A DNA stretch of 64,000 nucleotides from Microbispora sp. H11081 (GTDB lineage Bacteria; Actinomycetota; Actinomycetes; Streptosporangiales; Streptosporangiaceae): NCBI RefSeq assembly GCF_012999535.1, contig NZ_JABBWV010000002.1:124001-188000 (forward strand), given 5' to 3'. The notes under the pieces were generated by a model, which was not told where the DNA came from, did no database searches, and was given only the letters and a program-made list of their open reading frames with translations. The position numbers and the translations under genes are program-made. Positions 21,745-24,698 of the stretch are shown here, one piece after another. Numbering within the stretch: position 1 is the first letter of the stretch; each line of letters starts with the position of its first letter.

Positions 21745-23511
21745 ATGAATACTCCGCAGAGTGCCCCGGTGGGCCAGTCCTGGCGAGACCTGCCCGCGGC
21801 GCAGCAGCCCGAGTACCCCGACCCTGAGGCTCTGCGCGGCGTGATCGCGGACCTCGAGTCGTTCCCCCCGCTCGTCTTCGCCGGCGAATGCGACCAACTG
21901 CGCGCCCGCCTGGGAGCCGTCGCCAGGGGCGAGGCGTTCCTGCTTCAGGGCGGCGACTGCGCCGAGACCTTCGGCGGGGTCTCCGCCGAGCAGATCCGCG
22001 GCAAGCTCAAGACGCTGCTTCAGATGAGCGCGGTCCTCACCTACGCCGCCTCCGTGCCCGTCGTCAAGGTGGGCCGGATCGCGGGGCAGTACTCCAAGCC
22101 GCGTTCCCTGCCGACCGAGACCCGCGACGGGGTGACGCTCCCGAGCTACCGGGGCGACTCCGTCAACGGCCTGGAATTCACCCCGGAGGCCCGCACCCCC
22201 GACCCGGATCGGCTCAGGCGGATGTACCACGCGTCCGCCTCGACGCTGAACCTGGTGCGGGCCTTCACCACCGGGGGGTACGCGGACCTGCGCCAGGTGC
22301 ACGCCTGGAACCAGGACTTCGTGAGGTCGTCGCCCGCGGGCCGGCGCTACGAGGCCCTGGCCACGGAGATCGACCGGGCGCTGACGTTCATGCACGCGTG
22401 CGGGGCCGATCCCGAGGAGTTCGGCTCCGTCGAGTTCTACTCCTCCCATGAGGCGCTGATCCTGGAGTACGAGTCGGCGCTGACCCGTAAGGACTCGCGC
22501 ACGGGGCGGCGGTACGACGTGTCGGCGCACCTGGTGTGGATCGGGGAGCGCACCCGGCAGCTCGACCACGCGCATGTCGCGTTCGCCGCCGGCATCGGCA
22601 ACCCGATCGCGGTGAAACTGGGCCCGTCCAGCACGCCGGAGGAGGCGCTGGCCCTGATCGACCGGCTCGACCCGGAGCGGGAGCCCGGCCGGCTGACGTT
22701 CATCACGCGGATGGGCGCGCGCGGCGTCAGGGACCGGCTGCCCGAGCTGGTGGAGAAGGTGACCGCCGAGGGCGCGAAGGTGGTGTGGGTCTGCGACCCG
22801 ATGCACGGCAACACCTTCGAGGCGGCGTCCGGGCACAAGACCCGCCGCTTCGACGACGTGCTCGACGAGGTCAGAGGCTTCTTCGAGGTGCACAGGGCGC
22901 TCGGCACCCACCCGGGCGGCATCCACGTGGAGCTCACCGGCGACGACGTCACCGAGTGCCTGGGCGGCGGTGACGAGATCCTCGTCGACCATCTGCACCG
23001 GCGCTACGAGACCGCCTGCGACCCCCGGCTCAACCGCAGCCAGTCACTCGAACTGGCCTTCCTCGTCGCGGAGATGCTCCGCCAGGACCCGGCGGGAGGG
23101 GCGGACCGCACGAGCGGCGCAGGGCAGACCGTACGCGCGGTGCGGGGCGCCGTACAGGTCGAGCGGGACGACGAGCCGCACCTCCTGGAGAGCGTCGAGA
23201 CCCTGCTCCGCGAGATCATGGAGGTCAACGGCCTGTCGCGGGACGACCTCATCAGCATCGTGTTCACCTCCACCCCCGACCTGGTCAGCGCGTTCCCCGC
23301 CGCGGCGGCGCGCGCGATCGGCCTCACGCACGTCCCCCTGATGTGCGCGCGGGAACTCGACGTGCGGGGAGCGCTGCCGAGGACCGTACGCGTCCTCGCG
23401 CACGTGCGGACGACCCGGCCCGTCCGCGACGTCCGGCACGTGTACCTGGGGGGCGCCGCGGCGCTGCGCGAAGACCTGGCGCGGCGGGACGAAGGGGGCG
23501 TGACCCGGTGA
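21745..23511 (+). CDS. Class II DAHP synthase fused to AroH-type chorismate mutase
   Basis: A 588-residue bifunctional enzyme in one uninterrupted frame. Residues 1-448 are a class II (plant/AroG-Mtb type) 3-deoxy-7-phosphoheptulonate synthase: QGGDCAE at 68-74, [10 protein letters not shown] at 111-120 and [10 protein letters not shown] near 350. A short Gly/Ala/Thr linker follows, then residues 463-588 form an AroH-type chorismate mutase with all expected active-site residues: R467, C534, E537, R549 and Y567. It would catalyse the first step of the shikimate pathway and the branch to prephenate. GGAGGA precedes the ATG. Its stop overlaps the tyrA start (GTGA). Confidence 0.93.
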
Positions 23512-24698
23512 TACGCACCATGGCGGTGGTGGGCACGGGTTTGATCGGGACATCGGTGGGGCTCGCGGTGAGCCGGCACGGCGTCATGGTGCACCTGCTG
23601 GACCAGGACGAGACGGCGGCCCGCACCGCGGCGGCGCTGGGCGCGGGCGTGGCCGGCGCCCCGGCGGAGCGGGTGGACCTCGCCGTGATCGCCGTGCCGC
23701 CCAGCAGGGTCGGCACGGTTCTGGCCGAGCAGCAGTTGCGCGGCCTCGCCCACGCCTACACGGACGTGGCGAGCGTGAAGTCCGCCCCGGCCAGGGACGT
23801 GCTGCGCACCATCTCCGATCCGGTGACGTTCGTGGGCGGGCATCCGCTGGCGGGCCGGGAGAGGTCGGGCCCGCTGGCGGCCCGCGCCGACCTCTTCGAG
23901 GACCGGTCGTGGGTGCTGACGCCCACGCGGGCCACCTCGCAGCCGGCCTTGAACCGGGTGCTTGAGATGGTCGCCCTGTGCGGGGCGATCCCCGTGGTGA
24001 TGGAGGACCAGGCGCATGACGCCGCGGTTGCGCTGACCTCGCACGCGCCGCACGTGGTGGCCAGCCTGATGGCGGCGCGGCTCCAGGCGGGGCCCGAGGA
24101 GGCCTTCCGGCTCGCCGGGCAGGGGCTGCGCGACGTCACCCGCATCGCGGCCGGCGACCCCCGCCTGTGGAGCGACATCCTCCAGGCCAACGCCGCCGCG
24201 GTCGCCAGGGTGCTGCGCGCGCTGAGCGATGACCTGTCGGCGGTGCTGGCCGCGCTCGACGACCTCGCGGCGGCAGAACCGGAGCGCGAGGGCCACAGCG
24301 TGATGCGGATCGAGGAACTGCTGCGCCGGGGCATCGCCGGGCTCGACCGGGTCCACGGCAGACGCACCGGCGCGCCCGCGGGCCAGGTGCGGCTGCGGGT
24401 CGCCGTGGGGGAGCGGCCCGGAGAGCTGGCGCCGCTGCTCGGCAGGCTCGCGGAGCTCGGGGCCGGCCTCGACGACGTCACCGTCACGGCGTCCCAGGAT
24501 CGTGGCGTCCTCCTCGCGGAGTTCGGCGTGCCCGCCGTCCGGGCGGAGGCGGCGTGGCGGGCGCTGACCGAGGACGGGTGGGCCGCCGAACGCCTCCAGC
24601 CGATCGCGGCGAGGGAAGGCCCGCCCGCCGCTCCCGGCGCCCCGCCGCTGGACCGTCAGGCGGAACCGGGCAGGCAGGAGGCCCTTAGCAAGCCCTGA
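23508..24698 (+). CDS. tyrA: Prephenate dehydrogenase (TyrA family)
   Basis: A 396-residue NAD(P)-dependent enzyme converting prephenate to 4-hydroxyphenylpyruvate. The Rossmann motif [14 protein letters not shown] is at residues 5-18, followed by [12 protein letters not shown] (about 102-113), the prephenate-binding segment. Residues about 295-365 form a C-terminal ACT-like domain that could mediate tyrosine feedback. The GTG start at 23508 overlaps the DAHP synthase/mutase stop, so the two are translated together in a channel from erythrose-4-phosphate plus PEP through chorismate (using housekeeping enzymes) to 4-hydroxyphenylpyruvate. Confidence 0.93.

Follow-up and report, generated by a model that had tools for sequence, protein, structure and literature searches.

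DAHP synthase is the entry enzyme of the aromatic-compound pathway, and chorismate mutase commits that pathway towards tyrosine. The B. subtilis DAHP synthase that carries an AroQ domain is presumably of class I-beta. In that enzyme, as in the protein described here, synthase and chorismate mutase form one chain; there the helical AroQ domain lies at the N-terminus, whereas here a class II, long-form synthase carries an AroH domain at its C-terminal end (excerpts of PMC5526877). The M. tuberculosis and C. glutamicum systems also join a class II synthase physically with a mutase, but in a transient, non-covalent complex with an AroQ-delta partner that is weak alone; here the bond is covalent and the mutase has the unrelated AroH fold (excerpts of PMC7762937, PMC6435475 and PMC10520331). 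Class II synthases are divided into type IIA (long) enzymes, which are tetrameric, regulated and primary, and type IIB (short) enzymes, which are dimeric, unregulated and secondary; the long form is defined by an N-terminal extension and the alpha2a-alpha2b region (excerpts of PMC6435475).

We describe a fusion of a class II DAHP synthase with an AroH-type chorismate mutase, found in a window (the whole stretch of DNA that was analysed) of 64,000 nucleotides from the soil bacterium Microbispora sp. H11081. Comparative sequence analysis argues, with good confidence on our part, that the product would be a real bifunctional enzyme, that together with tyrA it would form an extra, cluster-owned set feeding an acquired secondary-metabolite cluster, and that it would have been fused from a dahps-aroH-tyrA cassette in the Microbispora lineage.

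The fused gene and its domains

A single open frame of 588 codons runs on the + strand from the ATG at 21745 to the TGA at 23511 and encodes 588 residues; the computed mass of the full-length product is ~64 kDa. Pfam places DAHP_synth_2 at residues 11-442 (E 2.6e-207) and CM_1, matched along its full profile (1-116/116; E 1.4e-39), at residues 463-578. The NCBIfam models TIGR01358 (753.1 bits against a cut-off of 614.7) and TIGR01796 (138 bits against 82; profile 1-117/117) also score above threshold. The open frame and these assignments bear out the preliminary description, made from the letters alone, of a complete class II synthase and a complete AroH mutase in one 588-codon frame. The interval given there, 21745-24698, does hold the fusion, but it spans two genes, and the fused gene reaches only to 23511. 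The overlap with tyrA that it reported was read as GTGA at 23508-23511, four bases shared by the fusion stop and the GTG start of tyrA. All features are collected in Table 1.

Table 1. Genes of the inserted block and parts of the fused gene, in window coordinates
Feature	Positions	Strand	Remarks
MFS exporter, far end of inserted block	10081..11568	-	
Acyl-CoA dehydrogenase-fold flavin monooxygenase	11741..13213	-	relatives Rv3094c, 3-HSA hydroxylase, XiaF
CGNR/ABATE regulator	13332..13895	+	
PNPOx-like flavoprotein	13938..14345	+	
Adenylate-forming ligase	14455..16131	-	nearest PDB chains 6ulx and McyG 4r0m
Methyltransferase	16128..16880	-	
AraC-type regulator	16880..17878	-	
Flavin reductase	18462..19001	+	
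FAD/NAD(P)-binding protein	19104..20681	+	NAD_binding_9; conserved across clusters
NovR-like class II aldolase-fold protein	20799..21614	+	best PDB match NovR 9ryg, E 1.3e-58
Fused gene: class II DAHP synthase, linker, AroH-type chorismate mutase	21745..23511	+	aa 1-447, ~448-462, 463-588
DAHP synthase part	21745..23085	+	long form, end-to-end alignment with 5uxm and 2ypo
Linker, ~15 codons, weakly conserved	23086..23130	+	aa ~448-462
AroH-type chorismate mutase part	23131..23508	+	CM_1, TIGR01796
tyrA, prephenate dehydrogenase	23508..24698	+	PDH_N, PDH_C; GTG start

Against solved structures, residues 11-447 align on 13-450 of 5uxm and residues 16-446 on 32-461 of 2ypo, with gaps of 1-3 residues only and a last aligned synthase residue of 446 or 447; the mutase part aligns with AroH mutases. 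By its full-length alignment the synthase part has the N-terminal extension and alpha2a-alpha2b region of the long form (type IIA), yet the gene lies in a secondary-metabolite block, and the fusion is outside the simple type IIA/IIB split. All ten catalytic and metal positions, whose numbers we take to be those of the M. tuberculosis enzyme, are kept. R467, C534, E537, R549 and Y567, the mutase residues singled out in the preliminary description and presumably equivalent to the B. subtilis AroH active-site residues R7, C75, E78, R90 and Y108, are present and invariant across all five aligned fused proteins. With synthase and mutase domains in one frame the protein has the make-up of a bifunctional enzyme, though not of the described kind, a class I synthase with an AroQ domain: it is a class II synthase with AroH. 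An AlphaFold2 model based on an alignment of the five fused proteins had a mean pLDDT of 38 and was set aside; a larger mixed alignment was dropped for modelling, as it misplaced stand-alone mutases at 11-22% identity to the fusion.

The synthase and mutase domains are under purifying selection and the linker is drifting. Over 10 pairs of fused genes, dN/dS (Nei-Gojobori) is 0.21-0.33 for the synthase part and 0.10-0.44 for the mutase part; for the 15-codon linker, a short stretch for a crude method, it is 0.26-1.05 in nine pairs, at least 0.67 in six of these nine, and undefined in the remaining one. The linker of L034 is two codons shorter. The codon at the mutase start is an in-frame ATG in three fused genes (L032, L033 and L034), preceded in L034 by GGGAG, and free mutase could still be made in the three species that keep this ATG. 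The window has CAG at this place and L004 has CTG; of the in-frame starts from the anchor to the mutase motif, those that remain are ATG 444, which lies within the synthase part, and GTG 466, immediately ahead of R467.

The high linker ratios and the surviving starts suit a near-neutral fusion in transition, in which the halves act independently, free mutase also arises through internal initiation or linker cleavage, and being joined matters little or not at all to function. We regard this as possible but doubtful: the start has gone from the window gene and from L004, leaving the two codons just named, and the frame is open in all five fused genes. The reading we prefer is that of a working bifunctional enzyme.

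The inserted block and the distribution of the fusion

The fused gene and tyrA stand at one end of a block of ~14.6 kb (10081-24698). The NovR-like protein directly upstream has 4xxf as its next PDB match (E 2.1e-51), and scores 202 bits to NovR against 178 to the aldolase chain; because the latter comes so close, we hold the NovR assignment of 20799-21614 with moderate confidence. The protein is 87-88% identical to its counterparts in loci L128-L130 and L181, and a relative (51-52%) is found elsewhere in some Microbispora genomes. The FAD/NAD(P)-binding protein is 62-69% identical to proteins of Streptomyces-type clusters; its one match among solved structures (E 0.0038) covers a small part of an engineered sensor and is uninformative. 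A run of Gly-Thr-Gly repeats lies inside it (residues 146-164, window 19539-19595).

The neighbour order is kept in fused genomes G006, G011 and G002, and in G012 within a 6 kb contig. Five of the ten fusion-free Microbispora genomes were read at the insertion site (G010, G005, G003, G013 and G004). In the stretches read from the first four, the block genes at 10081-24698 have no match at the site, and a relative of the window gene at 8719-9171 adjoins moaA (24782 in the window); the G004 contig stops close to moaA. The site being empty in these four genomes, the fusion belongs to the inserted block, a movable, acquired gene cluster that probably makes a natural product.

The fusion was found over its full length in 5 of 15 Microbispora genomes (the window's own and assemblies G002, G006, G011 and G012), with matches covering at least residues 1-586 of 588; the other four proteins are 83-92% identical to that of the window. 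In the family, a query spanning the junction had matches at the cut-off in 95 of the 341 genomes, with a stop-free span of both parts only in the five Microbispora; the other family matches listed begin no earlier than query residue 45, which places them at the last synthase helix or beyond it. With the full protein as query and a strict cut-off, the same 5 of the 341 genomes were returned. A class sample gave matches in 21 of 394 genomes, two of them fused, both Microbispora, the remaining matches starting at residue 63 or later. Group g85, taken for Streptomyces, gave junction-query matches in 141 of 392 genomes and no fusion; the sole match covering both parts, in G756, has two stops inside. 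From the size of the group, whose 392 genomes are a draw from a larger number, and from likeness to plasmid genes we infer that g85 genomes G562 and G756 are Streptomyces. A scan of contigs found the fusion in 3 of the 54 loci among the matches listed (L032, L033 and L034, all Microbispora records); in the other 51 a class II synthase match was absent from the DNA read, which was short for some. The fusion is restricted to Microbispora in the sampled genomes, a survey that could miss divergent or unsampled fusions. The preliminary description had looked to many homologs with the same fusion beside tyrA as a sign of a specialised enzyme; the fusion instead occurs in five genomes of one genus, and the more widespread arrangement is that of unfused neighbours.

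The window's genome also encodes a stand-alone class II synthase (75% identical), a stand-alone AroH mutase (53%) with another tyrA directly after it, a third tyrA-like match elsewhere, and three AroQ-type matches. Tyrosine synthesis includes all three activities, and the fusion could on that ground be taken for the organism's housekeeping tyrosine pathway. We consider this very unlikely: the 10 of 15 Microbispora genomes in which the fusion is absent have other copies, the block is inserted, and neither half groups with the genus's stand-alone copies (see the trees below). An extra set owned by the cluster is the reading we retain.

Further aromatic genes were seen in the genus. A third DAHP synthase of class II, 65% identical, is encoded in G006 at L124:9909-11210 on the - strand. 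Fusion-free genomes G001 (L122:6474-12485) and G013 (L123) have a further pair of AroH mutase and prephenate dehydrogenase. The neighbours in L122, judged by eye with only the mutase checked by Pfam, resemble a VOC protein of the 4-hydroxymandelate synthase type, an aminotransferase and an FMN oxidase, as in a hydroxyphenylglycine-type cassette.

Unfused relatives and the origin of the fusion

An orthologous block lies in G562 (locus L181). Identities to the window proteins are 81% for the exporter, 78% for the monooxygenase, 72% for the CGNR regulator, 76% for the ligase, 78% for the methyltransferase (over the part read), 71% for the flavin reductase, 69% for the FAD protein, 88% for the NovR-like protein, 76% for the synthase and 58% for the dehydrogenase. 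In it the synthase gene (15262-16644) ends 37 bases short of a separate mutase gene (16682-17062), which lies in another frame. Four linear Streptomyces plasmids (L128, L129, L130 and L186) carry the flavin reductase, FAD protein, NovR-like protein, synthase, aroH and dehydrogenase as separate genes, and after the dehydrogenase come aroC, aroB, tkt and aroA, making these clusters a nearly private shikimate supply. A ScbA/ScbR-type regulator pair lies near the cluster on three of the four plasmids, those read with wider flanks. In two further genomes of the Streptosporangiaceae, G093 and G097, the stop of the synthase and the start of the mutase share bases (ATGA); the stretches read there matched the monooxygenase and flavin reductase, and gave no match to the NovR-like gene. 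The G093 cluster has a second, divergent AroH-type domain beside its flavin reductase (L184:8191-8673, - strand; CM_1 2.8e-28), and in G097 a tblastn match (L185:18959-19282) falls at a similar place.

Synthase and mutase share one frame, with a stop between them, in L129 and L130, and lie in different frames in L128. The junction measure gave no value for L129, L130 and L186; the first two were read by eye and L186 from annotation. Where such same-frame pairs exist, a base error might in theory give the look of a fusion, and a frameshift or sequencing error at the junction had been named at the outset as something that would refute the claim. That the fusion is an error of assembly or sequencing is scarcely credible, since the frame is open also in assemblies G002, G006, G011 and G012, and the five agree while their linkers have diverged and come in two lengths.

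In a careful tree of the mutases, those of the clusters, fused and unfused, make up a single clade (bootstrap/SH-aLRT 96/88) that is distant from the mutase native to the genus, and the five fused mutases form a clade at 99/96; a quick tree gave the cluster clade a support of 90, not starred. The long-branched L184 sequence, present in the quick tree, was left out of the careful one. In a quick synthase tree, from which L155, L158, L159 and L160 were left out, the fused five (98) group with g85 housekeeping and cluster enzymes (inner support 84-93) and not with Microbispora's own synthase. Origin of the fusion by doubling of the genus's own enzymes was rejected on the trees and identities.

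Since relatives keep synthase, mutase and dehydrogenase separate and closely packed, the fusion is, as judged from the gene comparisons, best read as the outcome of a late join within a supply cassette of three genes. The ancestor would have had a tightly packed dahps-aroH-tyrA cassette, like that of the unfused relatives; a small insertion or deletion in the Microbispora lineage would have joined the synthase and mutase frames; and the old mutase start would have been lost subsequently.

Proposed function and comparison with known systems

By homology and kept residues, the synthase half would open the shikimate pathway by forming DAHP and the AroH half would convert chorismate to prephenate. 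By homology again, the tyrA product would carry this on to 4-hydroxyphenylpyruvate, its translation probably coupled to that of the fusion through the four-base overlap. Oxidative decarboxylation by the NovR-like protein might then yield perhaps a 4-hydroxybenzoate-type unit which, as a best guess, the flavin enzymes would hydroxylate further and the ligase activate. The most likely role suggested by these assignments is a dedicated supply of prephenate and 4-hydroxyphenylpyruvate to the making of a secondary metabolite, with the NovR-like neighbour perhaps as the route. The secondary-metabolism role first proposed from the sequence has gained from the inserted block, the extra copies of all three enzymes, the NovR-like neighbour and the orthologous clusters.

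CloR and NovR turn prenylated 4-hydroxyphenylpyruvate into a benzoate via a mandelate (excerpt of PMC13111500). A Pfam scan of 12 genes of the block showed no prenyltransferase, so that a NovR-like enzyme in this cluster, in contrast to CloR/NovR, would probably take a substrate that is not prenylated. On the same ground we set aside an aminocoumarin-like product, a prenylated 4-hydroxybenzoate. The cluster product is probably aromatic.

The supply had also been proposed to be 'feedback-altered', and this part is not supported: over its whole length the synthase aligns with long-form enzymes that are regulated, and at the effector-site positions, which we take to be sites of the M. tuberculosis synthase (165 and 228 among them), the fused proteins have the letters of g85 housekeeping synthases L141, L143, L144, L145 and L151, except at 228 and, in L033, at 165. 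Position 228 is S, S, A, A and L in the fused five, T in four of the housekeeping synthases and A in L151.

The AroQ domain fused to the B. subtilis DAHP synthase is less active than AroH and is thought to be regulatory (excerpt of PMC5526877). By analogy, the mutase domain here might serve chiefly to regulate the synthase. We think this quite improbable, given the five invariant mutase residues, the coupled prephenate dehydrogenase and the plain, separate mutase gene of the unfused relatives. In the bifunctional enzyme that we favour, the tether would mainly fix a 1:1 supply; the weak conservation of the linker makes a specific signalling interface through it unlikely.

The M. tuberculosis synthase is a tetramer (excerpt of PMC7762937) and B. 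subtilis AroH a trimer (excerpt of PMC5526877). A tetramer-forming synthase and a trimer-forming mutase on a short linker could not make a simple closed oligomer if both native symmetries were kept. By analogy with these enzymes the fusion might in that case build a larger assembly (a cage, network or enzyme condensate), which we consider unlikely; it would gather the pathway entry and branch-point steps and, through coupled translation, the prephenate dehydrogenase too. Alternatively, one half may change its oligomer. Given the symmetry mismatch, the form that the protein assembles into is difficult to foresee and can readily be measured.

The preliminary description had thought the pairing of a class II DAHP synthase with AroH unusual, and among the matches listed none was found in the portions of open-licence PMC papers covered. 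The pairing thus appears new, its absence from the literature being tentative because open-licence rather than subscription papers were covered. It is built from ordinary parts, which stand at two main control points of aromatic biosynthesis, and marks a movable cluster with a probably aromatic product. Separate, overlapping and fused states all occur in living relatives, and three of the five fused genes keep an ATG at the mutase start; the locus is therefore a compact test case for the passage from gene packing to protein fusion and for the effect of covalent joining on flux.

Among known clusters, the glycopeptide cluster of A. bartoniae likewise owns the same three activities, with a type I chorismate mutase, but its synthase is of class I-alpha and its genes are separate, where here the synthase is of class II and fused (excerpts of PMC11727664). 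P. aeruginosa PhzC (type IIB) is, as here, a class II synthase within a secondary-metabolite cluster; it is of the short form, dimeric and unregulated, whereas the synthase here is a long form that aligns with type IIA (excerpts of PMC6435475). Closest of all in layout are the cassettes of L128-L130, L181, L186, L142, L146 and L185, which have the same three genes in the same order. L128-L130, L186 and L142 are 66-71% identical to the fusion over both parts, and the synthase parts of L181, L146 and L185 are 76-78% identical to that of the fusion; in all of these the genes are separate, and in Microbispora synthase and mutase are one.
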